DNA of 34,950 nucleotides from a virus. Both the position numbers and the translations under genes were made by a program. Shown one piece after another: positions 7,698 through 34,950 of the stretch (its first letter is position 1; each line of letters begins with the position of its first letter). The stretch lies in IMG/VR virus record IMGVR_UViG_3300033145_002781, positions 1 through 34,950 of that record; one strand, given 5' to 3'. Under the pieces are notes generated by a model that did no database searches, was not told where the DNA came from, and saw only the letters and a program-made list of their open reading frames with translations.

Positions 7698-8759
7698 TTA
7701 AAACATTTCCATCTGAATTTGTGGTTGATATGGTTCGTACTTGAACTTCATGGCAACCTTCCGGTCCGGGCAATTTTCCCGGATGTAATCCAGGATATTT
7801 TTCAGACCCAATTTTTTCATACAGAATCTAAATAATTTGGGGTGGGTTTCTCTTAGCATTTGAAACCTGTTTGGTGCTGATTCCATATGCATCCCAAAAC
7901 AACAAAAAACACAACCGGTGGAGTGCACGCCATCAAAAAACAATTTGCCTGTGGAATTATCTTGATGAATATTTCCGTAAACTTTTGCATACGGAATGTC
8001 GTATTCAACTATCGCCTGAAGGATGTCCTGTTCTGTCCAAAAGCCCAACGGGGTGGATCTGGGATGTTTCGCATCAAATGCATTGCATCCAGACTGCAAA
8101 TAAACTTTTTCCCTGGTTTTAGAGTCAGCTGCCATTTTTTTCATTATCTGACAGCACCGGTCAGAAATTTTAAAAGGTGCATCGATCAAAAAACGCCATC
8201 GCTGTGCAACCTTAAATCCATTTGTTTTTTGCCCAAAACGGTTAATACCCTGATCATACAGCCGCCATATATTTTTGTTGTTTGGTGTCGGGTTTCTCAG
8301 GACATTGATACCCCGTGCCGTCTTCTTACTGATTACCGGCCAGCCATAGTCACGGATGATATGATGAAAAGGTATCCGTGGACGAAGCGTTGTAACATTA
8401 TCAGTTTTCTTGACAAGAGAAAGGATCTCCGGGTACTCCAGGCCGGTATTACAAAAAACAGCAGGCGTCTTTGGATATATTTTCCTGACCAGGTGGAGCA
8501 ATACAGCACTGTCTTTGCCTCCGCTGAAACTGACGGCAACATTGCCGTCAAAGGCTTGGTGCCATTCTCTAATCCGCTCCAGAGACAGTTCAACCTTTTC
8601 TTTCAAAGGGAGAGCCTGCCTCCGGCGCAGGGCATCATACCTTTTGTTCAGCTCGCCGGATTGAACTCTTTCATGCCATTTTTTTTCAAACGGTGTCAGT
8701 TCGGCTGGAATATTGCCTTTTGCGTCTTTAGTAATCACAACACATCCTCTATCTTCCAT
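7698..8759 (-). CDS. PAPS/APS-reductase-like PP-loop ATP pyrophosphatase with Fe-S signature
   Basis: A protein of about 353 residues in the phosphoadenosine-phosphosulfate reductase superfamily. The PP-loop SFSGGKDS (SGGKDS at 79-84) binds ATP. NTGLEYPE and RSTPLGFWTEQDI are typical family blocks. A CC pair at 202-203 followed 79 residues later by CVFC (283-286) matches the CC-X80-CXXC [4Fe-4S] pattern of APS reductases. The C-terminal ECGLH reductase motif is absent, so sulfate reduction is unlikely. Thiolation or another nucleic-acid modification, as in DndC-like relatives, is an inference. An upstream in-frame ATG (8789) would overlap the nuclease gene further. It lies between the nuclease and excisionase-candidate genes in the early operon. 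Confidence 0.82.
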   Translation of the reverse strand: MEDRGCVVITKDAKGNIPAELTPFEKKWHERVQSGELNKRYDALRRRQALPLKEKVELSLERIREWHQAFDGNVAVSFSGGKDSAVLLHLVRKIYPKTPAVFCNTGLEYPEILSLVKKTDNVTTLRPRIPFHHIIRDYGWPVISKKTARGINVLRNPTPNNKNIWRLYDQGINRFGQKTNGFKVAQRWRFLIDAPFKISDRCCQIMKKMAADSKTREKVYLQSGCNAFDAKHPRSTPLGFWTEQDILQAIVEYDIPYAKVYGNIHQDNSTGKLFFDGVHSTGCVFCCFGMHMESAPNRFQMLRETHPKLFRFCMKKLGLKNILDYIRENCPDRKVAMKFKYEPYQPQIQMEMF

Positions 8760-9267
8760 TTCGGCTCTGCTTCTTCCACGGGGAGTCATAAATCAATGGC
8801 ATTACACCTTGTAGGTGTAGTCTCCTCAATGCCGAATACATAAGCGCCGTTTCGTTTTTAATATTCCTCTCCTGAAACATGAATTCTTGGTCAGATGACC
8901 ATACATTGCCATCTGGCCCTACTTTTTTGTAAACCCTACCCTTGGGGCTGACATAAAGAAGGCCCCATCTGTCTGGCAAATCTTCCGGCTTGATCACGCC
9001 TTTTGGGCAGAGGTAATACCTATACTTCCCAACACCAAGCCAAGGGTTTTCCCGGAACATCTTTTTGCGGTCTGCAAGAAAATCAGCCTTGGAGGTTTTG
9101 CATTCAACAAGTATAGAGGCCTCATGCCTGAAACCAATAGCATCTGGTATTTCCATTGCTAATGTTGCAAGCTCCGTAAAAGCGAACCCGCATCTTCTCA
9201 AAAGCCATTTTTTGGCAATTTTGACCAGGTCTGAGTGTGTGAATTTCATTGGATCAACTCCCTGCAC
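8749..9267 (-). CDS. PD-(D/E)XK-type nuclease, resolvase/MmcB-like
   Basis: A 172-residue protein, or 167 from the second methionine. The pattern IPDAIGF followed by SILVECKTSKADF supplies the D and ExK residues of the restriction-endonuclease-like fold (about residues 40-63). KYRYYLCPKGVI and RWGLLYVSPKGRVY follow, as in phage repair nucleases that I recall under MmcB-like or VRR-like names. It probably cuts or trims DNA during phage recombination. It overlaps the start of the PP-loop gene and its 5' end overlaps the stop of the C5 methyltransferase, so the genes are translationally coupled. The second methionine (MKFTHSD, 9252) is the more usual start. Confidence 0.68.
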   Translation of the reverse strand: MQGVDPMKFTHSDLVKIAKKWLLRRCGFAFTELATLAMEIPDAIGFRHEASILVECKTSKADFLADRKKMFRENPWLGVGKYRYYLCPKGVIKPEDLPDRWGLLYVSPKGRVYKKVGPDGNVWSSDQEFMFQERNIKNETALMYSALRRLHLQGVMPLIYDSPWKKQSRNGR

Positions 9268-12664: not shown

Positions 12665-15235
12665 TCACGCAGCTATATTGGATTCAGAAACAATCCCGCC
12701 GTGCTGAAAGATCAAGGCATGATCAGCCATGGCCTGGCAGTCAGGGATGTGTGAGATAAAGAAGAGTTTTTCAAAATCGCCCTTGGCCATGAGCGCCCGG
12801 TACATCTTAATGAACCGCTCAGCCTTGTCCTTGTCCAATGCCCCTGATTCCTCGTCCGCAAAACAGGTCTGAAAATGGACACCCGATTTTTCAGCATTGA
12901 CAAGGATCTGTGCTGCCTTGAAAGCCTGTAGTATCCACACGCTCTCGCCGCCTGAGTAATCTGCAAGAGGGAAGCTTTGCCCATCCCCGCGGCTGATCAT
13001 AATATCAAGGATCTCTGCGCCTGTTTCCGGGTCCTGGGTGACCAGGTCAACAAAGAATTCTCCGCCATATGCCTCTGTCAGAAGATCGTTTGCAAGCCCG
13101 GTCAATAGAGGGGCGGCTGCTGCAATTTCAAGGGCCTGCAAGCCTGATTTTGACACAGCCCCCCTGATATATGCCCACCGGCTGATTTCCTTTCGGATGT
13201 GCTTTTCCAGTTTCCGTAGCCTGTCTATCTCGGCAGCATCATTCAAAGACCCTTTGGCTTTTTCTTCACAGACGGCAATGGCTTTTTCTGTCTCAGACAC
13301 CAGGCCTTTGAGCCTTTCAATTTCTTTTTCCTGTTGAGCGCTGACGCTACGCGCTTGTTGCTGTTTTCTTGCAATGTCCGCAGAGGAGATATTCAGGGAT
13401 AGCGCAATGACATCATTTTCCAGCCTCGTGAACAGCGCCTGGAGCTCTACGCTCTGATTTGTATACGCCTCAAGAGTCTTGTCCTGCTCTGCCTGTTTTT
13501 CTTTCGCTGCAACGGCGGCATGGGTCAGCTCTTGTTTGGCCATGTCCAGGTCCGCCTTTTTCCCTGCCAGTGCCTGCAGCTCTTCAATCCGGTCAGGGAC
13601 GCCGTCTATATACCCTTTGACCTCTGCATATTGTGCCAGCAATTTTTCCCGGGTAATACTTTTTTCGTCCCGTTTTTTTTCCAGGGTTTTAATGGCTGCA
13701 GAGATTACCCCTGCCCGGCTGCCTACGATCCTGGCTCTTTCTTCCAGCGCCGTCTTTGTTTTTGACAATTCATCCTTGAGCCTGGTGATATCCGTCTCTA
13801 TTTTAGCCAGACGCTCTTTTTCCGCATTGAGCGCCCTGGCATTCTCGGCCCTGCGGTCCGCCAGCTCTTTTTCTTTTGCCGGCTTCTCTTTGATTTGCTC
13901 CAGGGCGTTCTTGATGAAAGAACAAGTATCATCAATGCAGTCTGGTGGGCGCCGAGAAATCAAATCCTCAGCCTTGGCATATGCTGCCAGCTCTTTTTCT
14001 ATGCTTGCCGCCACTGCATCGAATGCCATGGACTCGATCAGCGCCTGCACCTGGGATGCATACGCGGTCCCGGATTCTATATCCGTCTTTATCTGTGATA
14101 TTTTATCTGTAAGTTCTGACATCTGGCTGTCTGAGTCCCAAGCCCGGACCTGTGCCTGGTGGTCCGATATCTGGGTGTTAATCGCATCTATGGAGTCCCG
14201 GATATTAGTACCTTGCTCAGACAGAGCATTCAGCCGAGACTGCCAGATCTTTTCTTCTTTCCGGATTTGCTCGATCCCTTCGGTTGCTGTCAAAATCTGC
14301 TTTTCCTGAGCCACTATGGCCTGGAATGGAGATAGGCGATTCCTTTGGGCGTCCTGCCATGCTACATAACTCTTAGCTGCCCTTTCGCATACCTCCCGTG
14401 CTTCAGCCATAGTTTCTTCAAGCGCGGCCAGTTGCTTTTTCTTTTCCGCCACAGTTGCTTCTTTTTTGGCGGCCTCGACGGCTTGTTTGGACAGCTTCTC
14501 AATATCAGATACTGTGCCCGTGAGTATCAATTCGGCCCCGGAGATATCTTCTTTGTATGTCTCCAATTGTCGCTTATGGCCATCAAGGCGGCGATTGTTT
14601 TCATCAATCTCAACAGTCTTGTTTTCAAACCCCTCCAGGTCACTCTGACACCTGGCCAGGGATCTTTCGCATTCGGTGATAACCTTGCCCACGCTGTGCC
14701 AGTATTCTACATACCTTTTCAGCCCCAATAGTTCTATTAAAAGGCCCTTGAATTCTCCGGTGGGCAGGTCTGTCAGTTTCTTGCCGCCCTGGCAGGAAAA
14801 CATGGAAGAATAGAAAAGCTTTTCGGATCCGAAGAGCTCTACAACTTTCTTACGATACTGACTGATCTTACCTTTAACCAATGGCTCCCCGTCGCGCCAG
14901 ATATAACCCTCCGGTGACATAGTGGTACCGGCCGGGATCTCAACTCGAAAAAGGTATTCTCTGCCCTGGTGGATGTAACAGACCTCTTTATAAGAATCCC
15001 GTAGCCTGAACTGTTTTTTCAGGTTGTAGCGTTTCGGGTCCTTCATCTGCCTGCTTGGGAAAACATCGAACGGAGAAAGCATTTCCATGAATGTTGTTTT
15101 CCCCCGGCCATTCTCCCCGGCCAGCGTGACCAGGCCGGATATATCTTCAAAATTAACTGCCACTTCATCCACGCCCAGGCCGTAATATAGGCCATAGCTC
15201 CCTTTTGCCTTGAACCATCCTTTAAGCTGCGCCAT
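12665..15235 (-). CDS. SbcC/Rad50-like ATPase
   Basis: An 856-residue SMC-type ATPase expected to pair with the SbcD-like nuclease upstream for double-strand end processing. Walker A GENGRGKT is at residues 40-47. Two long coiled coils (about 175-430 and 450-690) flank a turn near residue 435 with PPDCIDDTC, where Rad50 proteins have the CXXC zinc hook; here the cysteines are four residues apart (CX4C). The signature motif is DYSGGES and Walker B/D-loop is FADEESGALD, both near the C-terminus. It overlaps the SbcD-like gene by 14 bases and is probably co-translated. Confidence 0.9.
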   Translation of the reverse strand: MAQLKGWFKAKGSYGLYYGLGVDEVAVNFEDISGLVTLAGENGRGKTTFMEMLSPFDVFPSRQMKDPKRYNLKKQFRLRDSYKEVCYIHQGREYLFRVEIPAGTTMSPEGYIWRDGEPLVKGKISQYRKKVVELFGSEKLFYSSMFSCQGGKKLTDLPTGEFKGLLIELLGLKRYVEYWHSVGKVITECERSLARCQSDLEGFENKTVEIDENNRRLDGHKRQLETYKEDISGAELILTGTVSDIEKLSKQAVEAAKKEATVAEKKKQLAALEETMAEAREVCERAAKSYVAWQDAQRNRLSPFQAIVAQEKQILTATEGIEQIRKEEKIWQSRLNALSEQGTNIRDSIDAINTQISDHQAQVRAWDSDSQMSELTDKISQIKTDIESGTAYASQVQALIESMAFDAVAASIEKELAAYAKAEDLISRRPPDCIDDTCSFIKNALEQIKEKPAKEKELADRRAENARALNAEKERLAKIETDITRLKDELSKTKTALEERARIVGSRAGVISAAIKTLEKKRDEKSITREKLLAQYAEVKGYIDGVPDRIEELQALAGKKADLDMAKQELTHAAVAAKEKQAEQDKTLEAYTNQSVELQALFTRLENDVIALSLNISSADIARKQQQARSVSAQQEKEIERLKGLVSETEKAIAVCEEKAKGSLNDAAEIDRLRKLEKHIRKEISRWAYIRGAVSKSGLQALEIAAAAPLLTGLANDLLTEAYGGEFFVDLVTQDPETGAEILDIMISRGDGQSFPLADYSGGESVWILQAFKAAQILVNAEKSGVHFQTCFADEESGALDKDKAERFIKMYRALMAKGDFEKLFFISHIPDCQAMADHALIFQHGGIVSESNIAA

Positions 15236-16559
15236 TCAGCACCTCCCTTTCTTCCATCTTTATAATTTCCGCTTGGGGCTCTGTCTCTAACAGCTCCAGC
15301 CGGCCCAGCCCATACTTGACCAGGTCCTCAGTGCTCAAGGCTTCAACCTTTTCAAGCATTTCAAATACTCCCTCCGGCGCAGGCTGGGATCTGTGATCCG
15401 CCAGGGCCTTGACTTTTTCGACCAGGGTTTTTGCTCTGATTATTTTTTCTTCCCTGCTGTTCTCGCGCCGGACTCTGTCAACCTCAAGAGTAACATTTGA
15501 GGCGCCTGCCTCCAGCAAGAGGCGTTTGATTTTTGACTGATTGATCATCCTTATGTCATCCATCCAGGCCGTTATCTTGACCTTAATCCATGACCCTATT
15601 TCTGCGTGTGGTTTCATTACGGAAAAAACGATTTCTGCAAAATCCATATCCGAATTATCAAGGTGCCATGGCTCCTTGATGAGGTCATAATCAATCTGTG
15701 CCATTTCCCGCGTCGGGGTCTTAATAAATTCCGCATCATTGAAATCGGCATGTATGGCCGTGTGAATATAAAACCCCTTATCCTCTTTTCTTTCTCCGAA
15801 GGTTTTGCGGAAAATAGATCCGGAATGATAGGCAAGGCCACGGGCACCGGGGAGGACGTACTCCTGCCTCATATGGATATGGCCAAGGCAATATAGATCC
15901 GCACGGGCCATGACCAAGGTCTCCTTATCAATAGCAATATCCCCGCCCGGGAGAAGTTGAGTCTCGGAAATTTTAGATCCTTTCATTGAAAAGTGCCCGT
16001 TAAGGATATGTGGCGTGTCCGGATACCTTGCCGCTTTCACTGAAAAGTCTGCAAAGATGGCGCCCATGGCTTGTGCGATATTCATATTGTCGGTTTCTGC
16101 ACCCTGTCTGTTCTTCCAGAATTCTTTTGTAGGCGCCGGGACCTGAGAGACAATGAGCCTGACGACTTCGCTCTCTTTGCGTGGCGGAGATGTGGCCCAG
16201 GCCAGGCAGCCACTGACAGGCCGGGCATATAACAATAGTTGTTCCGGTTTCGTGCTGACATGGATTGGATATTTGCCTGAAGCATGTTTTAACAATTCAG
16301 GAGTCATGCCATCGTGTGAATAAGTCCCGACCACTACAGCAACCGGAGCAATATCAGACATTATTCTGAACTGCGCCAGGATGGTTTTAGCAGACTTGGT
16401 GTCTGCCACAAGGTACTGCGAATTTGTGACGTCCCCGCTGCAGAGAATAGCGTCTATCTCTTCCTCTTTTGCTCGGCCGATCATATAGTCCATGCATTTT
16501 TTTATTTCTGCATGGTTTTTTTCATCATAATGAACGTCCGCAAAATGTAAAATTTTCAT
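15222..16559 (-). CDS. SbcD/Mre11-like nuclease
   Basis: A 445-residue metallophosphoesterase nuclease, partner of the SbcC-like ATPase. Motifs in order: DxH in FADVHYD (residues 7-12), GDxxN in CSGDVTNSQ (about 41-49), a variant of GNHD reading GTYSHDG (about 88), GH in LNGHFSM, and GHIH in LGHIHMR. The Asn of the usual GNHD motif is replaced (SHD), while the catalytic His is kept; I recall similar GTxSHD forms in other phage SbcD proteins. The C-terminal region is long and helical, likely for SbcC contact. The start codon overlaps the stop of the annealing-protein candidate (ATGA). Confidence 0.9.
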   Translation of the reverse strand: MKILHFADVHYDEKNHAEIKKCMDYMIGRAKEEEIDAILCSGDVTNSQYLVADTKSAKTILAQFRIMSDIAPVAVVVGTYSHDGMTPELLKHASGKYPIHVSTKPEQLLLYARPVSGCLAWATSPPRKESEVVRLIVSQVPAPTKEFWKNRQGAETDNMNIAQAMGAIFADFSVKAARYPDTPHILNGHFSMKGSKISETQLLPGGDIAIDKETLVMARADLYCLGHIHMRQEYVLPGARGLAYHSGSIFRKTFGERKEDKGFYIHTAIHADFNDAEFIKTPTREMAQIDYDLIKEPWHLDNSDMDFAEIVFSVMKPHAEIGSWIKVKITAWMDDIRMINQSKIKRLLLEAGASNVTLEVDRVRRENSREEKIIRAKTLVEKVKALADHRSQPAPEGVFEMLEKVEALSTEDLVKYGLGRLELLETEPQAEIIKMEEREVLNGAA

Positions 16560-17578
16560 TTCTTAAGTCCTTTCATAATGTGTTTATAATACTCTGTCCG
16601 GTGCTCTTGGTTCCAGAATTCCAGGCCAGGCTGACCTTTCATATCCTGCTCGTGCAGCCGGTACCCGGTTTTTTCAATTACTGTCATGATTGTGCGCACC
16701 TGCTCTTCAACGGGGATGTTTTCAAAATCAACAATTGCCGATTCTGGCATAGCCCCTTCTGCGGCCGGAGGAAGGTTTTCCGGAGTGACGTCTTTAGCAG
16801 GGATGGCGGCTGGCATCGGAGGGCCTTCAATTATACCAGGGGCAACGCCGTATACACCGGTTATCGCCTGCTGGAAACTGGCCAGTTGTGCTGCCTGGAC
16901 CTGCGGGTTTGCAGGGTCCAGGATATACCGGACGATATAAAAGTCTTTGGCGATCCCGTCGTGGTTGTTTTTATTGTTTCCGTGGGCATGAAAAGATACC
17001 GGCAGATGGAGAATATTCCTAATTACCCTTGATTGAGCTCCGCTTTCACACCGCTCGTCCATGGTTTCTCTGATCTGGTTGATATCACGATCTGTATATT
17101 GCCGGATGTAGTCCTGTTCGTTGTTCGGCCAGGGCTTTTTCCCTTTGTTTGTCTGGAAATCCTGGTTTTTAAAGAAAAATTGTTTTTTGTATTTTTCTTC
17201 ACAGGCACTTCTTTTAGCATCCAGGTCAATGTGTTTGTGCCCGACGACCTCAGACCATAGGCCCTCGGCGGTCCGGTACCGGCCGACCACGCGGAATGAA
17301 CAATAATTAGGGTTTTTGTGATCGTCCATGCGGCCAACGCGGCCCACTTCGGCGGCCCACTGGATGCCGGCAGCATCCGCCAGCTTCATGGACGCATGGT
17401 GGTGAATTCCGAATTTTCCCTGATTTGGATAGAAATCCGACGGCAGCAGACGTACAACTTCCAGGACAGGTATAAACAACCCGTTGACCTGGGGGAGCGG
17501 GACAGACGGCACAAAAATAAAATGCCCTTCTTTCCGCGCCTGGGTGAGCTGCTCTCTCAGTTTTTTGTTTTGATCCAC
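16556..17578 (-). CDS. Putative phage recombination protein (single-strand annealing type)
   Basis: A 340-residue protein starting with GTG behind an ideal AAAGGAGGTAA ribosome site. Residues about 40-210 hold the conserved-looking part: KLADAAGIQWAAEVGRVGR, FRVVGRYRTAEGLW, HKHIDLDAKRSACEEK and a QSRVIRNILHLPV segment. The C-terminal 100 residues include a Pro/Ala-rich linker and end in a helix (RTEYYKHIMKGLKK). First place in an operon with SbcC/SbcD-like proteins suggests a RecT/Rad52-type annealing protein, but no family signature is certain. A recombination-linked unknown is the safest name. Confidence 0.5.
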   Translation of the reverse strand: MDQNKKLREQLTQARKEGHFIFVPSVPLPQVNGLFIPVLEVVRLLPSDFYPNQGKFGIHHHASMKLADAAGIQWAAEVGRVGRMDDHKNPNYCSFRVVGRYRTAEGLWSEVVGHKHIDLDAKRSACEEKYKKQFFFKNQDFQTNKGKKPWPNNEQDYIRQYTDRDINQIRETMDERCESGAQSRVIRNILHLPVSFHAHGNNKNNHDGIAKDFYIVRYILDPANPQVQAAQLASFQQAITGVYGVAPGIIEGPPMPAAIPAKDVTPENLPPAAEGAMPESAIVDFENIPVEEQVRTIMTVIEKTGYRLHEQDMKGQPGLEFWNQEHRTEYYKHIMKGLKK

Positions 17579-21803: not shown

Positions 21804-22025
21804 ATGTTGTGCCCATATTGCAAGGAGTCGCATAAACACCGCGTGCTCGACACAGACACAAAGATAGGTCCGTGTATTCTCCGGCAGCGAGAATGTCTCG
21901 GTTGTGGCGAGAGGTTCAGCTCTGTTGAGTATCCAACCGACGCAGAAGGTTGGCGGCGCCTGTATGATGCGTTTGTGCGGCCTGCCCAGGAGCGGGCCAG
22001 GAAACTGGAAAGGGCAAATGGATGA
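21804..22025 (+). CDS. NrdR-like zinc-ribbon protein without ATP-cone
   Basis: A 73-residue protein that matches the first domain of the ribonucleotide-reductase repressor NrdR: MLCPYCKE, HRVLDTDTKIGPCILRQREC and LGCGERFSSVE. The ATP-cone that makes up the rest of NrdR (about 150 residues in total) is missing, replaced by a short charged helix. It could bind DNA at NrdR-type sites or act as a packaging/late regulator. AATAGGAGGTCTCTG precedes the ATG. It overlaps the small terminase gene by four bases. Confidence 0.72.
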   Translation: MLCPYCKESHKHRVLDTDTKIGPCILRQRECLGCGERFSSVEYPTDAEGWRRLYDAFVRPAQERARKLERANG

Positions 22026-22678
22026 ATCAGGCTATTACACCCCCGGCTCACCTGCCGCCCAAGCAGCAGCTATTTTACGTGTATTATCTACAGACACTCA
22101 ATGCTGTTCAGTCTGCTATCAAAGCTGGATACTCTAAAAATACTGCACTGAAATCAGCGTATCTTTGGGTTGGGAAAAATCTGGAAAAGTGCCCCAAGGC
22201 ATACCAACCCTTGTGCCAAGCTATCAACGAGTCCAAAGCCCACATGATTGAAAAGGTGGCTCTAACGCCCGCCAGGGTGCTTGAGGAATGGATGTCAATT
22301 GCTTTTTTTAACCTGCAGGACATATTCGACCAGGAGACAGGAAACCCCCTGCCTATTAATGAGCTGCCACCAGAAGCGGTTTCAGCTTTAGAGTCCCTGC
22401 AGGTCTTGAAAGAAAGCTCGAAAATTGAGGGTCAGGCCGAGGTGAATACGGCCATGGTTAAGTTTAAGGCGCACCAGAAAACAAAGGCACTTGAATTTTT
22501 ATCAAAATATTTGAGGATAGACCCCACCCATGACTACAAAAAAGGCGGATACAACCAGGCCGGCTCGTCAGAAACAGAGGTGATAGGCAAGGTTTTAAGG
22601 CGAATTGGCGGGAGAACCAGGGGGCTGCCGGCTCCAGTACGGGAAATCCCGGAAAATTTTAATTTAGAAGGAGAATAA
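22022..22678 (+). CDS. terS: Small terminase subunit
   Basis: A 218-residue protein. PPKQQLFYVYYLQTLNAVQSAIKAGYSKNTALKSAYLW is the HTH-like DNA-recognition region typical of small terminases (about residues 12-50). A helical oligomerisation region and a basic tail (RRIGGRTRGL) follow. It sits two genes upstream of the large terminase and overlaps the NrdR-like gene (ATGA). It should select phage DNA for packaging. Confidence 0.82.
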   Translation: MNQAITPPAHLPPKQQLFYVYYLQTLNAVQSAIKAGYSKNTALKSAYLWVGKNLEKCPKAYQPLCQAINESKAHMIEKVALTPARVLEEWMSIAFFNLQDIFDQETGNPLPINELPPEAVSALESLQVLKESSKIEGQAEVNTAMVKFKAHQKTKALEFLSKYLRIDPTHDYKKGGYNQAGSSETEVIGKVLRRIGGRTRGLPAPVREIPENFNLEGE

Positions 22679-22679
22679 C

Positions 22680-23120
22680 GTGACAACTATTGCTTATAAG
22701 GACGGCCTTATTGCCTATGATTCCAGGATGACAGAGGGCAACATTATCATCTATAACGACTATAACAAGCACACAGAGGTTGACGGTGTGCATTTTTTCT
22801 TTACAGGCGCAGACGCAGAATATCAAGATTTGATCAATGCTTATTTCGGGAGAGCCTTCGCACCAGGAATAGATGCTGGTGCTATCGTTGTTGATGGTGG
22901 AAATATTTTTAGTTGCGGCGTCGTGTCCCGTGACGAATTCTACAAAGCCCCGCTTGAAAAAGAAAAACCATATGCGCTGGGAAGTGGCTCCCCCTATGCA
23001 TATACCGCCATGGACATGGGTGCACCAGCCGGCAAGGCAGTCGAGATGGCAAAAAAAAGAGACACCCGGACAGGCGGAGAGGTGAGAGTTTTTTCTATTA
23101 ACGGAGCCAGGAGCAAATAA
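22680..23120 (+). CDS. HslV/proteasome-β-like N-terminal-threonine hydrolase
   Basis: A 146-residue protein starting with GTG, one base after the small terminase stop, behind AGAAGGAGAA. MTTIAYKDGLIAYDSRMTEG matches the N-terminus of HslV: removing Met would expose the catalytic Thr, with Asp13 (DSR) and Lys29 (YNKH) in the usual D17/K33 positions. YALGSGSPYAYTAMDMGA and RDTRTGGEVRVFSING match the rest of the fold. No HslU-type ATPase is in the window. It is only slightly shorter than HslV (about 175 residues). Prohead processing or turnover of host factors is possible; its place between the terminase genes is unusual for a protease. Confidence 0.82.
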   Translation: MTTIAYKDGLIAYDSRMTEGNIIIYNDYNKHTEVDGVHFFFTGADAEYQDLINAYFGRAFAPGIDAGAIVVDGGNIFSCGVVSRDEFYKAPLEKEKPYALGSGSPYAYTAMDMGAPAGKAVEMAKKRDTRTGGEVRVFSINGARSK

Positions 23121-23125
23121 CCAAA

Positions 23126-24814
23126 ATGCAGGTAGGATACAAACGAAAACTATATCAGCCCTTCATCGACGAAGAAACCGGTGTTTTGGTCGATTTTTCA
23201 GATGACGTCACCGGGACCGGCATTCTGCACCCCGACGATCCTGCATTAGATCGAGAGGGGAAAGACGGGCAGCATCACCTTGAATTCGAAGATGCCGCCG
23301 ACATGGAGGCAAAGCTTTCGGATAAATGGTGGCGGCTGAACAACCTGTACTATATCATCGACGCAAAAGGCGATAAGGTTCTGTTCAAACCCAATTACAG
23401 CCAGTGGCTTTTCTACAACAATCTCTGGTATATGAACCTGATCCTCAAGGCCCGGCAGCTCGGATTTACCACGTTTATTGATATCTATATCCTGGATGAA
23501 TGCCTTTTTAATCCCAACATCGAGGCCGGGATCGTTGCACACAACAGGGAGGATGCCGGGAAGATCCTCCGCCGGAAGATCCTCTTTCCCTACAACAATC
23601 TACCTGAGTGGTTGAAAGAAGCCAGGCCCCTGATCACAAAATCAAAAAGCGAGATGGAGTTCAAGCACTCTGACACAGATTCTTCTGTCCTCAGTGTCGG
23701 CACGTCTTTCCGATCCGGTACCTGCCACCTCCTCCATATTAGCGAGTTTGGGAAAATATGCGCCCAGTATCCCGCGAAAGCAGAGGAAATTGTATCGGGC
23801 GCCCTAGAGGCTATCCATACAGAAAATAGGCAATGCCTGTCGTTTATCGAGTCGACGGCAGAGGGCCGGCAGGGTTATTTTTATGATTATTGCCAGGAGG
23901 CCCAGAAATTCCAACTCATGAATATCAAGCTCTCCCCGCTTGATTACCGGTTTCATTTCTATCCATGGTACGAAAACCCGGGCAATGCCTCATCAACGCC
24001 CAGGGTGATCACTGACCACATGTCCAAGTATTTTGCCAGGATGGAGGCGGAGATAGGGGAAAAGCTGACACCCGAGCAGAAATACTGGTATGTGGCCAAA
24101 GAGGCTAAGCTTGGGGAGTTGATGAAGCGGGAGCATCCGTTCACTCCCAAAGAAGCATTTGAGCAGGCTATCCTGGGGGCATATTTTGCCAGTCAGTTTG
24201 ACAAAATCCGCATGGACGGAAGAATATGCAATGTCCCTCACAATTCAGGGGTTGTTGTCGATACATGGTGGGACCTGGGCATCGGTGACGCCATGGCCAT
24301 CTGGTTCACACAAGATATTGGCCGGCAGATCCACGTCATTGACTATTACGAAAATTCCGGGGAAGGTATTGAATTCTATGCCAATATGCTTGCAGAAAAG
24401 CGCCTGACCCTGAAATATGAATACGGTACCCATAATGGGCCGCACGACCTGGCCAAGAGAGAGATAGGCACAGGTGTCGATATCTGGACATCAGCTGCCA
24501 ATATTGGGATCAAATTCAGGAAGATTCCAAGGACAAAATTCAAAAGGGACTCGATCAATGCAGCCAGGACAATCTTATCCTTGTGCTGGTTTGATCAGAC
24601 CAGGTGTGACAAAGGTATTATGCGCCTGGAGAATTACCGGAAGGAATGGAACCCATTATTACAATCATACAGAGACACTCCTCTGCACGACATTAACAGT
24701 AATTGCGCCGATGCCCTGCAGACCATGGGCATGGGACACAGGTTTAAGCTGGCACAATCAGCGGCACGTGTAATGAATACTGTCCAGCCTGTTTCGGCAG
24801 CTGGTTGGACATAA
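23126..24814 (+). CDS. terL: Large terminase subunit (packaging ATPase/nuclease)
   Basis: A 562-residue motor protein. Walker A-like KARQLGFTT is near residue 111, where phage terminases often read KSRQLGFTT, and Walker B LLHISEFGK is near residue 205. SFIESTAEG forms the coupling motif. The C-terminal RNase-H-like nuclease has DTWWDLGIGDAMAIWF (Asp) and NCADALQTMGM (late Asp). It should cut and pump DNA into the prohead through the portal encoded downstream. The ATG follows the protease stop by five bases. Confidence 0.93.
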   Translation: MQVGYKRKLYQPFIDEETGVLVDFSDDVTGTGILHPDDPALDREGKDGQHHLEFEDAADMEAKLSDKWWRLNNLYYIIDAKGDKVLFKPNYSQWLFYNNLWYMNLILKARQLGFTTFIDIYILDECLFNPNIEAGIVAHNREDAGKILRRKILFPYNNLPEWLKEARPLITKSKSEMEFKHSDTDSSVLSVGTSFRSGTCHLLHISEFGKICAQYPAKAEEIVSGALEAIHTENRQCLSFIESTAEGRQGYFYDYCQEAQKFQLMNIKLSPLDYRFHFYPWYENPGNASSTPRVITDHMSKYFARMEAEIGEKLTPEQKYWYVAKEAKLGELMKREHPFTPKEAFEQAILGAYFASQFDKIRMDGRICNVPHNSGVVVDTWWDLGIGDAMAIWFTQDIGRQIHVIDYYENSGEGIEFYANMLAEKRLTLKYEYGTHNGPHDLAKREIGTGVDIWTSAANIGIKFRKIPRTKFKRDSINAARTILSLCWFDQTRCDKGIMRLENYRKEWNPLLQSYRDTPLHDINSNCADALQTMGMGHRFKLAQSAARVMNTVQPVSAAGWT

Positions 24815-25144: not shown

Positions 25145-27286
25145 ATGCAAAGCGCATTCGGAATGGTGCCAGTCGTCACCAACAATCAGTTAAGAGCGAA
25201 AGAAGATGCAGAGCTTAAGGCCAAAAAAGAGGCCCAGGAGCGGCAGGGCCGGCCCTTTATCCTTGGCCTTGTTCATGATCTTCGGGACAAGTGGGATGCC
25301 GCCAAGGCAGCCAAGCACGAAATTGAACAAGAGATGCTGACCGACATCAGAAACAGGAAAGGTGTGTATAGCGCCGCCAAGCTGGCAGAAATCAACAAAC
25401 AGGGTGGCAGCGCCATCTTCATGATGTTAGGGGAAGAAAAGGCCAGTGCTGTTACTGCCTGGTTGAAAGATATATACTTCGGTAACCCTAACAACAAAAT
25501 ATGGGGGACCAAGACCACGCCGGTTCCGGAATTAAACCCTGCCCAAAAAGCACAGATTGTCGAAAAGGTTATGGCTGAGGCTCAAACTGAAATGCGGGCC
25601 ATGGTTGAGGCCGAGATCCAGCAGGGCCTGATCAAGACAAACCAGCAGGCCAAGGAGCGCTTCAGCATGATGATGGTTGAGCGCATGGAAGAGCTGGCCG
25701 GAGAAGTTCAGGAAGCCGAGCAGGCAGCAGCCAACAAGGCTGAAAACAGGATCGAAACCAAGCTGGACGACATTATTGTTGAGTCCGGATTCAACAAGGT
25801 CCTCCAGTTGCTGCTTGATGACATCAACACATTCAAGTGCGCAATCCTCAAGGGCCCCATTCAGATGTCCAAAAAAAAGATAGTCTGGGATCATCGGCCG
25901 CCCGGACAGGGACCGGCCCATGCCCAATTACCGGCGCCTGGACAAGAAGGTGGGAAGCCAGAGCGCCCGGTTAAAGTCAAAGACGTTTTGTCCTGGAAAT
26001 TCGAGAGAGTGTCCGCTATGGACATCTACCCTTTGCCAGATGCAGAGAACTTCGACCAGGGTTTTTTTCAGCGGCACAGGCTGACCAAGAGTGCGCTATA
26101 TGCCATGAAAAAGATTCCGGGGTTTGATTCTGACGCGATTGACCTTGTTCTCAGGGATTATACAGCCGGGGCGGTTGACTGGCTGAATGTTTCCATTGAC
26201 CATGCCCGCCAGCGTCTTGAGGATCGGCCCGATGAATGGAGGAAGACCGGCGGCAAGATTGATGCTCTCCAATTCTGGGGGGATATCCAGGGCCTGCAGC
26301 TGCTTCAATATGGCATGGACCCGGAAAAAATAGAGGACCCCATGGTCTCATACAAATGCGAGGTCTGGCTGATAGACAAATATGTGATCAAGGCCGAGCT
26401 TAACGGCAACCCGCTGGGGAAGGTGCCTTATTTCAAGACCAGTTTCCGCCGGAATAACGGCAGTTTCTGGGGGAAATCCACACTATCATTGATCAAAGAC
26501 AGTATTGATGCCTGTAACGCATCCGCCAGGAATATGCTCAACAACGCGGCTATTTCGTCTGGACCGCAGGTGGGAGTTGATTACTCTCAGATCAGAGAAG
26601 GCGATCATGTGACCGGGATGTATCCCTGGAAGGTCTGGGCGTTTGACGGCAACGCGCCGGGTGGGATGAGTCAGAAGGACCCGATTAGGTTTTTTGTGCC
26701 GCCATCCACCCTGGCCGAGCTGATCAAGCTCTATACGTTTTTTTCCGAACAGGCCGATGAAAAGACGGGTGCGCCCAAGTATTCCTATGGCGGAAATCAG
26801 AAAGGCGGGCCGCTGGATACAGCCAGGGGGTTCACTATGATGATGAACTCTGTCGCCAGGGGGATCAAGTCTGTTGTCTCTAACATCGACGATGATATCA
26901 TCGCCCCTGCAATTATCTACCTGTATGAAATGCAGCTGCTGTATTCCAATGACCCTGAATGGTTTCAATCCGACCTGACTATTCTTGCCCAAGGCAGCAT
27001 CAGCCTGGTTATGAAAGAAGCCGCCGCTCTGAGACGGAATGAATTTTTGAACATTGCAATGAATCCCACCGTCCTGCAAGTCATTGGCATTGAGGGCTTT
27101 GCTGAGATATTGAGAGCGGTCGCAGAAGGCCTTGATCTGCCGAGCGGCAATATTGTTCCGTCCAAAGAAACCATAGCCAGAAAAGCAAAACTTGCGCAAC
27201 TAACCGCCACGGCAGGGAAAGAAGAAGGCAAGCCCGGCAAAGATGAAGAAAACACACAGAAAGGACAAAGCGATGGGGAAGACTGA
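25145..27286 (+). CDS. Portal protein (podovirus type)
   Basis: A 713-residue portal, in the size class of P22 (about 725 residues) and N4-like portals. An N-terminal charged coiled-coil region (about residues 15-60) is followed by a long Glu/Gln-rich insertion (about 140-220). KAELNGNPLGKVPYFKTSFRRNNGSFWGKS and PKYSYGGNQKGGPLDTARGFTMMMN in the second half match the conserved portal core. It should form the twelve-fold ring through which DNA enters and to which the short tail attaches. CACAAGGAGAAAC precedes the ATG. Confidence 0.87.
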   Translation: MQSAFGMVPVVTNNQLRAKEDAELKAKKEAQERQGRPFILGLVHDLRDKWDAAKAAKHEIEQEMLTDIRNRKGVYSAAKLAEINKQGGSAIFMMLGEEKASAVTAWLKDIYFGNPNNKIWGTKTTPVPELNPAQKAQIVEKVMAEAQTEMRAMVEAEIQQGLIKTNQQAKERFSMMMVERMEELAGEVQEAEQAAANKAENRIETKLDDIIVESGFNKVLQLLLDDINTFKCAILKGPIQMSKKKIVWDHRPPGQGPAHAQLPAPGQEGGKPERPVKVKDVLSWKFERVSAMDIYPLPDAENFDQGFFQRHRLTKSALYAMKKIPGFDSDAIDLVLRDYTAGAVDWLNVSIDHARQRLEDRPDEWRKTGGKIDALQFWGDIQGLQLLQYGMDPEKIEDPMVSYKCEVWLIDKYVIKAELNGNPLGKVPYFKTSFRRNNGSFWGKSTLSLIKDSIDACNASARNMLNNAAISSGPQVGVDYSQIREGDHVTGMYPWKVWAFDGNAPGGMSQKDPIRFFVPPSTLAELIKLYTFFSEQADEKTGAPKYSYGGNQKGGPLDTARGFTMMMNSVARGIKSVVSNIDDDIIAPAIIYLYEMQLLYSNDPEWFQSDLTILAQGSISLVMKEAAALRRNEFLNIAMNPTVLQVIGIEGFAEILRAVAEGLDLPSGNIVPSKETIARKAKLAQLTATAGKEEGKPGKDEENTQKGQSDGED

Positions 27287-29303: not shown

Positions 29304-30251
29304 ATGTTTCCAGTTTCCCCTAATACCGGTGCGTATTCAGCCGCCGGTCTATCCGGAACCTATATCCCAGAGATATGGTCCGGAAAACTTTTAGTAAAAT
29401 TTTACGAAGCCACTGTATTTGCCCATATTGCCAATACGGACTACGAAGGCGAGATCGCCAAGTTTGGCGATAAAGTCATTATTCGAACCGTTCCGGACAT
29501 GGAGATCCGCAAATACAAGATCGGCATGTCTCTGCAGTACGACAATCCTCAGTCAGAGAATGTAGAGCTGCTTATCGACCGCGGTGAATATTTTGCCTTT
29601 TCCATCAATGATGTTGAGGCAAAGCAGGCCGACATTAATTATGTCGATAAATGGGCAACCGATGCTTCTCAGCAGATGAAAGGCGCCATTGACAAAGCTA
29701 TCCTTGGTGTCATGTACACCCAGGCATCAGCATACAACCGTGGCTCCACAGCTGGAAAGATTGACGGCGCCATCGACCTTGGCACAACTGATGTTGACGG
29801 CTCTAAGGCTGTAGCTCTTGGAAAAACCACCATCGTCGAGAAAATAGTTGAGTGCGGACAGTGCCTGGCAGAACAGAATATTCCCGAAACAGATCGGTAT
29901 TTTGTTATCCCTGCCTGGATGGGCACAAAAATCAAAGTGTCTGAGCTCAAAGATGCGTCTCTTTCCGGAGACGGTATTTCAACTGAAAGGTCCGGCAGGA
30001 TCGGCAGTATTGACCATTTCACCCTTTACACAAGCAATAATATCCTGCCTGTGACCGAAGGGGCTGTCAAATGCTATCATGCCATTTTTGGACATAAATC
30101 AGGCCTTACGTTTGCCTCTCAGCTGACCAACACAGAAAAGATCAAAAATCCGAGTGATTTCGGTGATCTTATGAGGGGTCTGCAGGTTTATGGATTCAAA
30201 GTCATTAAAGCTGAATCTGTCGGAGACCTGTACTGCAAGAAGGCTGCGTAA
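29304..30251 (+). CDS. Major capsid (coat) protein, podovirus P22-like
   Basis: A 315-residue protein. SGTYIPEIWSGKLLVKFYEATVFAHIANTDYEG, FGDKVIIRTVPDMEI and QADINYVDKWATDASQQMKGAIDKAIL are typical of phage coat proteins in the P22/HK97 fold group. There is no N-terminal delta domain, so a separate scaffold is needed; that gene is adjacent. AAGGAGAACC lies just before the ATG. The product should form the icosahedral head shell. Confidence 0.88.
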   Translation: MFPVSPNTGAYSAAGLSGTYIPEIWSGKLLVKFYEATVFAHIANTDYEGEIAKFGDKVIIRTVPDMEIRKYKIGMSLQYDNPQSENVELLIDRGEYFAFSINDVEAKQADINYVDKWATDASQQMKGAIDKAILGVMYTQASAYNRGSTAGKIDGAIDLGTTDVDGSKAVALGKTTIVEKIVECGQCLAEQNIPETDRYFVIPAWMGTKIKVSELKDASLSGDGISTERSGRIGSIDHFTLYTSNNILPVTEGAVKCYHAIFGHKSGLTFASQLTNTEKIKNPSDFGDLMRGLQVYGFKVIKAESVGDLYCKKAA

Positions 30252-32193: not shown

Positions 32194-33855
32194 GTGGCTC
32201 TCATTGACCTGTCCGTATTTAAGCCAGCATACCCGATTGTCGAGCCAGAAAATCTGCCTCCTGAGTACGCGGCCGACCTTCTTGATTGCGACTTAACCAG
32301 GGGTGGCCTGCGCGCCACAAAATTAGACTCTCTTCAGACCAGCATCGCTATCTCAGTCGACACCCAGAGTATTTATTTCAACGGGAATGTGTGGTACCAG
32401 TGGCCGGGGTTGGTTGATGTTGCCAAAAACTTTGACAGCATCACATCCAAACGAGTCTTGATCACGGGCGACGGGTATCCGAAAGAGACCGATACCGCCC
32501 TTGGGGATACCGGGCTGGGACCATGGCCGGCTGCGACCAGAAGAAACGGCTTACCAGCGCCTGCAGATGCCCCTGGCATCCTCCTTGGAGGAGTAGCTGG
32601 GACGGATGAAAAAGGCCGGTACTCCTGGGTTTATACATATTATTATACTCGGCCAGATGGGTCTGTTATTGAATCAGCACCTTCTCCGCCTACGGCAGTG
32701 ATAACCGTAATGGATGGAGAGACCGTCACGCTAACCACCATGGCATACCCTGATCCGGCTGTTGCAGGATGCAGCTATACCGGTATCCGAATATATCGCA
32801 TGGTGGCCACAGAATCTGGCGCCTTGTATCATTTTGTCCATGAGCAGACAGACGTCCTTGATTGGCTGGATGATGTGTCAGATGAAACAGCGTCTGCAAA
32901 TGCAATTTTGGAAACGATGGATATGTCCTCCGGGTACCCTGTTTCCTGGGAAAAACCGATCGACACATTAAAAGGTATAACCCTGGTGGACTATGGTTAT
33001 TTTGTCGGGTATGACGGCAATAAGATATATCCATCCGTTCTCTTTGTGGGTTATGCTTTCCCTGGAAAATACAGCCTGTCCACAGACTCTCAGATAAAAG
33101 GCCTGGGCTATACCGGGTCTGTTGTTATTGTTCTGACAGAGGCTAACCCCTATATGTTATACGGGCAGGACCCGGCCACATTGTCATTACGCCGCCTGAA
33201 CTATGTCCGGCCCTGCATTGGGAAGACCCGGTCTATTGTCAGCACTCCTGTCGGGGTTATCTTTCCGTCTCTGGAAGGCTTGGCAATGATAGATGCCACC
33301 GGAACGGAACATCTTCTCACGGAAAATATTTTCACCCAGGATCAATGGACAGCCCTCAACCCTGATAATTTCATATCTTTTCTTTACCGGGGAAAATATG
33401 TTGCTTTTGAATCCGGCACACAGAATGTCCACATAATCGACTTTAAAAAAGGTTTGTATGAAAAAGGGCAGGCTTACGGGGTTGTCCGGGCTGCCTTCCA
33501 AAAAGAAGAGGATAAGCGGATTTACATTGTTGTTGATAATGTCGATGTGCGGGAGCTGCGCAAGTGGCGAGGTGGCTTGACAAAGGCTTATTACTGGGAA
33601 TCAAAAACCTTTTCCTTCGGATCGAAAACCTTTTTCAGCAGGGCAAAGATTACAGGAGATTTTTCAGGGGGCGGAACAGTTTCTGTTACTCTGTGTGTTG
33701 ATGGGGTAGACAGGCCTGCAATCACAGTGACCGGACCAGGGATCGTCAACATAGGCCGGTTCTACGCCAGGAGTATTTCCGCTAAATTCAGCGGCAAAGC
33801 CACAGTGACCAGGTTCCTTCTTGGCAGCTCTGCCAGAGAGGTGCTGAATGTCTGA
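32194..33855 (+). CDS. Tail nozzle-type protein (β-propeller)
   Basis: A 553-residue, strongly β-rich protein starting with GTG behind GTAGGAGGC. LPPEYAADLLDCDLTRGGLRA at the start and YSWVYTYYYTRPDGSVIESAPSPPT with YTGIRIYRMVA in the middle match podovirus nozzle/tail-tube B proteins, as in T7 gp12 or P22 gp10 relatives. The C-terminal third repeats β-hairpins. It should close the short tail and open on adsorption. No tape-measure or tail-tube gene follows, supporting a short tail. Confidence 0.75.
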   Translation: MALIDLSVFKPAYPIVEPENLPPEYAADLLDCDLTRGGLRATKLDSLQTSIAISVDTQSIYFNGNVWYQWPGLVDVAKNFDSITSKRVLITGDGYPKETDTALGDTGLGPWPAATRRNGLPAPADAPGILLGGVAGTDEKGRYSWVYTYYYTRPDGSVIESAPSPPTAVITVMDGETVTLTTMAYPDPAVAGCSYTGIRIYRMVATESGALYHFVHEQTDVLDWLDDVSDETASANAILETMDMSSGYPVSWEKPIDTLKGITLVDYGYFVGYDGNKIYPSVLFVGYAFPGKYSLSTDSQIKGLGYTGSVVIVLTEANPYMLYGQDPATLSLRRLNYVRPCIGKTRSIVSTPVGVIFPSLEGLAMIDATGTEHLLTENIFTQDQWTALNPDNFISFLYRGKYVAFESGTQNVHIIDFKKGLYEKGQAYGVVRAAFQKEEDKRIYIVVDNVDVRELRKWRGGLTKAYYWESKTFSFGSKTFFSRAKITGDFSGGGTVSVTLCVDGVDRPAITVTGPGIVNIGRFYARSISAKFSGKATVTRFLLGSSAREVLNV

Positions 33856-34950
33856 AAGGGTAATTAACATACCGGCTATCCCGCCGTCCACCCCTCCGGA
33901 ACTGGTTGAATATCTGACCTCCCTCAGCCAGGCTCTTGAATTGCTCCAGGGCCAGGGCCGGAACCGGGAGGTTGACCGGGCTGTCCGGGTTGGTGAGATG
34001 TTGGGTATGGTCACTAAATTTACCCCAACCGTCACCAGTGGCGACCCCGCACCCTCGGGTGAGACTCCGCTTCCTCCAACCAATTTAATTGTCATTGCCG
34101 GGGTTTTTGTCCACACAATATCTTTTACTCTCCCGAATGATGACATCGTCAGTCATATAGAAATTTGGGCGGCTAAGAACAGCCAGATTCGGGATGATGC
34201 ACAGCGGATTTATATCTTGACGGTTTTGCCTGATGATCAAGGAATTACCGTCTCTGTAAAAATCCCGGTTGATGATGTCACAGCCGATTATACTTATTGG
34301 GTCAGGTCTGTGAGTTTTGCCGGGAATCATTCAGTGTGGTGCCCGCCTGATACACAGGGTGGGTATGTGGTCCCCGGGGATGACACAATAGATGACACCA
34401 TTAACGGAGTGATATCGATCTTAAAAGGCGGGGCGCCTGCGGTATATAGTGCGACCACAACGTACAACCTGAAAGATCGTTGCCAGAAATCGGACGGCAG
34501 GGTGTATACCAGCAAGGTTGATGGCAATCTCGGCAATGAGCCGCCCAATACAGCCTATTGGGACAGAACCGGTATTCTCATGACCGGCGAAGTCGATGGC
34601 GTGGCTACTGTAGCTGTCGACGGCAACCTGGTTGTGGACGGGACTATCCTGGCAAGGCACATCCAGGCGAATAGTATCAAGGCAAACCATATAGACGCTG
34701 CGCAGGCTTTTGTGATGACCATCCAAAGCAGCAATTATGAGGCTGGTGTCAGCGGTTGGAAGATTGACAAAGCCGGCAATATGGAAATGAATAGCGGAAC
34801 GATCACCGTTACAGGACCCAGTACAGGATATTCAAATTTTACCGATATTCCGACCAGCTTAGCTGATATTAATCAATCAGAATTTGATTTACTTGGAGAA
34901 AGTATCCTTTTTTCCTGGGATGGTACTGAACCATTAAATCTTATGACCAA
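33848..34950 (+). CDS. Tail fibre/tip protein, truncated by the window edge
   Basis: An open frame of at least 367 codons running off the right edge. The first 75 residues are Pro-rich and helical; then a fibronectin-like domain (LPPTNLIVIAGVFVHTISFTLPNDD..., about 77-165) follows. GAPAVYSATTTYNLKDRC resembles a carbohydrate-binding-like module. GTILARHIQANSIKANHIDA is the IxAxxI repeat common in phage tail tips and fibres. It overlaps the nozzle gene by eight bases. It is likely to bind the host surface. The C-terminal part is outside the window. Confidence 0.75.
   Translation, partial: MSERVINIPAIPPSTPPELVEYLTSLSQALELLQGQGRNREVDRAVRVGEMLGMVTKFTPTVTSGDPAPSGETPLPPTNLIVIAGVFVHTISFTLPNDDIVSHIEIWAAKNSQIRDDAQRIYILTVLPDDQGITVSVKIPVDDVTADYTYWVRSVSFAGNHSVWCPPDTQGGYVVPGDDTIDDTINGVISILKGGAPAVYSATTTYNLKDRCQKSDGRVYTSKVDGNLGNEPPNTAYWDRTGILMTGEVDGVATVAVDGNLVVDGTILARHIQANSIKANHIDAAQAFVMTIQSSNYEAGVSGWKIDKAGNMEMNSGTITVTGPSTGYSNFTDIPTSLADINQSEFDLLGESILFSWDGTEPLNLMT

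Follow-up and report, generated by a model that had tools for sequence, protein, structure and literature searches.

Family, predicted fold, and genomic context of a proteasome-like threonine hydrolase encoded between the terminase genes of a phage contig

What does a proteasome-like enzyme do between the two terminase genes of a phage? The original prediction for such a gene in IMG/VR record IMGVR_UViG_3300033145_002781 was an HslV-like threonine protease without its ATPase partner HslU, which might borrow host HslU or act in prohead maturation. For this gene and its relatives we computed the family, the predicted fold, the conservation of catalytic residues, the gene context, and the extent of co-inheritance with the terminase.

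The gene and its neighbors

The window, which is the whole stretch of 34,950 bases analyzed here, is a linear and possibly incomplete IMG/VR contig, and absences reported for it hold for the contig only. The record is cut at its right end, since a tail-fiber-like ORF (33848-34950, + strand; PHROG 31, E=2e-10) runs off there. The features of interest are as follows, with fractions referring to 211 aligned proteins; PPH denotes the phage branch of the proteasome-like Ntn-hydrolase family.

22022..22678, + strand: terminase small subunit, TerS (PF03592, E=8.1e-23; PHROG 51/2606)
22680..23120, + strand: PPH, proteasome-like N-terminal-threonine hydrolase, 146 amino acids, GTG start (PHROG 1040, AF2 model, Foldseek)
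22683..22685, + strand: codon of Thr2, the putative nucleophile, which would be Thr1 once Met is removed (211/211)
22719..22721, + strand: codon of Asp14, equivalent to proteasome Asp17 (207/211)
22767..22769, + strand: codon of Lys30, equivalent to proteasome Lys33 (208/211)
22806..22808, + strand: codon of Gly43, equivalent to proteasome Gly47 of the oxyanion hole (211/211)
22980..22988, + strand: GSG 101-103, with Ser102 equivalent to proteasome Ser129 (Ser in 197/211, Thr in 7)
23058..23078, + strand: RDTRTGG 127-133, holding the equivalents of proteasome Asp166 and Ser169 (Asp128 207/211, Thr/Ser131 210/211)
23126..24814, + strand: terminase large subunit, TerL (PHROG 2, E=2e-24; PHROG 2472, E=4e-79)
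25145..27286, + strand: portal, SU10-like (PHROG 332/1216; PF23899 slightly below its cut-off)
29304..30251, + strand: major capsid protein (PHROG 267, E=6e-50)

Gaps of 1 and 5 nt separate the PPH ORF from the TerS stop and the TerL ATG, respectively. A good Shine-Dalgarno sequence lies inside the 3' end of TerS, and the PPH product starts with MTT and has no propeptide. The PF03592 and PHROG matches thus confirm that the ORF lies between two terminase genes. The absence of HslU was also borne out, as the HslU model TIGR00390 found no match in the window record, within the limits of a possibly incomplete contig. A promoter scan of the window returned no more sites than shuffled sequence did, with no + strand site immediately upstream of PPH or TerL, and no near DNA relative of the window was found in the phage collection searched. 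By reading of the ORFs, the - strand also appears to carry an SbcC-like ATPase, an SbcD-like nuclease, and a RecT-like protein in tandem (12665-17578) and a PAPS reductase-like protein near a DNA cytosine methyltransferase-like gene (7698-8789).

Family assignment, predicted fold, and catalytic residues

A chance match of the window protein is ruled out by PHROG 1040 ("peptidase HslV family"; residues 1-142, E=6e-36), by tblastn hits to Pseudomonas phages (E=2e-41), and by a profile search of PDB sequences that returned proteasome beta subunits (E=5e-13). Relatives were found in 528 records of the phage collection, mostly 140 to 160 amino acids long. The AF2 model (mean pLDDT, 94.2; pTM, 0.88) has a proteasome beta fold. 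Foldseek matched the model to a Caulobacter phage "proteasome subunit beta" (4e-12) and other phage Ntn proteins (up to 4e-12), a mouse 20S subunit (beta5; 1e-8), the betaproteobacterial proteasome homolog BPH (5ovt; 1e-8), and Thermotoga maritima HslV (4e-8). In place of helices H1 and H2 of proteasome beta and HslV, the model has a single helix (45-55) followed by a strand (67-72), and the alignment with Escherichia coli HslV has a deletion in the window protein at the H2 region and the pore-loop stretch after it.

Membership in HslV proper was rejected on model scores together with the missing H2 and pore-loop stretch. None of the NCBIfam HslV models matched the window protein; its NCBIfam match was archaeal proteasome beta, weakly. 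Neither PF00227 (Proteasome; 18.6 bits, cut-off 22.4) nor TIGR03634 (22.8 bits, far below the cut-off of 224) gave an accepted match. Among 137 diverse relatives, the archaeal proteasome beta model matched 76 and the HslV models 5, weakly. HslV (ClpQ) and the window protein share the Ntn fold, Thr1, Asp17, Lys33, and GSG, but the window protein is about 30 residues shorter, and the RD..TGG block is not conserved in E. coli HslV, which has ICIYTNH where the window protein has RDTRTGG. Archaeal and eukaryotic proteasome beta subunits are closest by sequence profile and share the catalytic set, including the Asp166 and Ser169 equivalents, whereas the window protein has no propeptide, one helix fewer, and scores far below the family cut-offs. 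BPH is among the best fold matches and was placed in the same group I (PMC8665760); it differs in having H1 to H4, an acidic pore loop, and a 14-mer double ring, whereas PPH is known here from a single-chain prediction.

The PPH family was described in 2021, with WP_042125023.1 as reference, as proteins of about 140 residues without a propeptide or helix H2, with Thr1, Asp17, Lys33, and Gly47, and phage encoded or phage flanked (PMC8665760). All of these traits are present in the window protein (the lack of H2 as predicted), and nothing essential separates the two apart from its unusual position between TerS and TerL, in a comparison drawn from the published description rather than from the WP_042125023.1 sequence. 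On size, catalytic residues, the missing H2, and PHROG 1040, it is near certain that the window protein is a PPH, with the predicted fold of that family, and not an HslV; the family name of PHROG 1040 is a label by homology. Of the HslV-like threonine protease first proposed, the proteasome family, the N-terminal threonine, and the intact catalytic site therefore stand, and the HslV identity does not, given the lack of an HslV model match and of H2 and the following stretch. Nor is the combination as striking as it had seemed. The protein is not new: it has relatives in those 528 phage records, and an HslV-like gene without HslU was noted earlier in a Salmonella jumbo phage, reported to have two HslV-like genes (PMC7823757). 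Two PPH-like genes (L189 and L193) apparently also lie on one 42-kb contig in our set (3300047469_000099).

These assignments bear on a first explanation, in which PPH mimics HslV by joining or replacing the host subunit in HslUV and redirecting degradation. The profile-profile match between E. coli HslV and the window family (E=6e-10), the lack of HslU in the phage record, and the HslV label in phage annotations are all in keeping with it. However, the proteasome-like RD..TGG signature and the preference of the relatives for the archaeal proteasome beta model point away from HslV, and the 2021 survey found no AAA+ partner co-occurring with the new homologs (PMC8665760). Docking to host HslU is doubtful because both the AF2 model and the HslV alignment lack H2 and the stretch after it, and we consider such mimicry quite improbable.

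The N-terminal Thr, Asp, Lys, GSG, and TGG blocks recognized from the outset are all present, as Thr2, Asp14, Lys30, GSG 101-103, and RDTRTGG 127-133. The set holds in relatives only about 25% identical, and near-invariance at that overall identity argues that PPH is likely catalytic. One PPH (L076:6001-6435) has Tyr in place of the catalytic Asp14 and may be inactive or reflect a sequencing error. By analogy, BPH may weigh against an active-peptidase reading, as this related protein, whose catalytic site is intact, showed no activity on standard substrates, although it did bind epoxomicin (PMC5777263). Another explanation is a non-hydrolytic Ntn enzyme, such as a small-molecule amidase or a peptide ligase like archaeal connectase. 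Connectase belongs to the fold family and is a monomeric ligase without H1/H2 (PMC8665760), and PPH likewise lacks one of the two helices; the connectase-type helical insertion between S3 and S4 is nonetheless absent from the AF2 model, and we give this explanation little credence.

Genomic context and exchange of packaging modules

In the 2021 survey, gene neighborhoods gave no hint of what PPH does (PMC8665760). We collected close and distant PPH loci, whose diversity comes from seeding with distant phage members, because an alignment-seeded scan added one new locus only. In all 58 nonredundant close loci, the first downstream ORF of at least 400 amino acids was TerL. A TerL was found within 3.5 kb downstream of PPH in 110 of 111 close loci and in 34 of the 79 distant loci with enough sequence, against about 9% expected for random placement in a 40-kb genome, an estimate that ignores relatedness. 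The TerLs near PPH fall into 11 sequence groups by single linkage, nine of which adjoin a distant PPH.

Gene order around PPH varies. TerS relatives, where identified, lie after PPH in nearly all loci, although the TerS seeds may include some non-TerS genes; the exception is the window, where TerS directly precedes PPH, with L208 as a further case at a distance. The order in the window (22022-24814) is TerS-PPH-TerL, and the relatives examined have PPH-TerS-TerL or PPH-metallopeptidase-TerL, while in L187 and L198 TerL precedes PPH. Distant PPHs also occur away from the terminase: next to holin and endolysin (lysozyme) genes in Jerseyvirus and Kagunavirus, by a helicase and DprA in KPP10, by a helicase loader in Shewanella phage 3/49, and on the opposite strand among tail genes in Jedunavirus. 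Escherichia phage nepoznato, whose hosts include E. coli K-12 MG1655, encodes a PPH as well.

A putative zinc metallopeptidase (PF18894, PhageMetallopep) with an HExxH motif directly follows PPH in 30 of the 58 nonredundant close loci (L001:6854-7459 and 29 others); the PHROG 513 label "transposase" for this gene looks wrong. This arrangement would fit a late peptidase pair that processes or degrades one shared target. However, PF18894 found no match in the window record, TerS takes that place in other loci, and no such gene is among the annotated neighbors in KPP10, Jerseyvirus, and Jedunavirus, many of which are called merely "hypothetical." A pair of this kind is, in our judgment, very doubtful.

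The recurrent position near TerL invites the explanation that PPH is a head-maturation protease, cutting scaffold, portal, terminase, or capsid while the head assembles, in the manner of canonical prohead proteases. The tight packing of PPH between TerS and TerL in the window is consistent with this, as is the nearby TerL in nearly all close relatives. No canonical head protease was recognized among the window ORFs scanned. The downstream ORFs sampled in close relatives, which have genes for scaffold (PHROG 206) and minor-head (PHROG 241) proteins, likewise included no separate gene for one. As those relatives are of the scaffold/minor-head type, with no separate canonical prohead protease among the ORFs scanned, PPH could still have a head-processing role in them. 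Scaffolds of the P22/SPP1 type nevertheless work without proteolysis, and the window protein has the Ntn proteasome fold by AF2 and Foldseek rather than that of a serine- or cysteine-type prohead protease. Furthermore, a Seoulvirus member carries a PPH, and the giant Salmonella phage SPN3US is presumably of the same genus. SPN3US has a prohead protease of its own, gp245 (PMC5694885).

Adjacency to terminase as proof of a packaging role was rejected by the distribution of packaging modules over the PPH tree. Mapped onto a tree of 137 PPHs, the 85 TerL-adjacent rows require at least 33 switches of TerL group; the tree is based on a short, partly unresolved alignment and leaves 56 of 134 inner branches open. 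For the two main TerL groups, well-supported PPH branches alone force 9 to 10 switches. For example, L061 and L064 share 99.3% identity in PPH, and their TerLs belong to different groups, being 18% and 78% identical, respectively, to the TerL of L001 (alignment A1). In such pairs, DNA homology takes in PPH with part of its upstream flank and breaks off close to the 3' end of PPH. In L042 and L046, 97.7% DNA identity extends over 4,693 bp and is followed by unrelated packaging genes. Near-identical PPHs beside unrelated packaging modules, with homology ending at the PPH 3' end, indicate that PPH moves with the upstream module and that this end is an exchange point of packaging modules.

PPH is therefore not co-inherited with the terminase, and the site that it occupies between TerS and TerL has the look of a module boundary. 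The lack of co-inheritance with TerL argues against a dedicated terminase or scaffold substrate, while a target common to many phages is still compatible with it. With near-identical PPHs beside unrelated packaging modules, many PPHs far from head genes, and the Seoulvirus case, a prohead-maturation role is not favored, and we consider it unlikely. The closeness of PPH to terminase at a module boundary is new relative to the 2021 survey, and a literature search with scant reach into subscription papers and preprints found no functional study of PPH.

Proposed role of PPH

We infer Met removal, catalysis, HslU independence, and late expression from the features described above. Removal of Met1 by host methionine aminopeptidase should expose Thr2. 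Lys30 and Asp14 should then activate Thr2 for attack on a peptide (or amide) bond, with Gly43 providing the oxyanion hole and Ser102, Asp128, and Thr131 assisting. As the subunit has no H2 or pore-loop stretch and the record has no HslU, PPH likely works without HslU, perhaps as an oligomer on a small or partly unfolded set of substrates. Late expression is probable, as PPH sits in the packaging gene cluster here.

The reading that we prefer is that PPH is an HslU-independent threonine peptidase that acts late and in an accessory capacity on a host or general target, and we see about an even chance that it is correct as a whole. Under this preferred reading, PPH would be retained as an accessory gene at the edge of a packaging or lysis module without belonging to the packaging machine, and its target would more likely be a host protein or a general late-infection target than the terminase or scaffold of the phage itself. 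We rate an HslU-independent late peptidase above a dedicated prohead or terminase protease. Still, the recurrent closeness to terminase, with PPH mostly upstream, between the two genes here, and after TerL in L187 and L198, could mean a tie to packaging. PPH might then be a packaging-linked or late-stage threonine protease, a minimal ATPase-free proteasome subunit with a target common to many unrelated packaging and lysis systems, an idea that we regard as a long shot. If true, such a common target would explain why PPH stays beside the terminase while the terminase itself is swapped.

The contexts described here place PPH close to the terminase at a module boundary, yet they speak against PPH being the dedicated partner of any single terminase. 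They thereby narrow the experiments to be done, and the function of PPH is testable in a phage of E. coli K-12.
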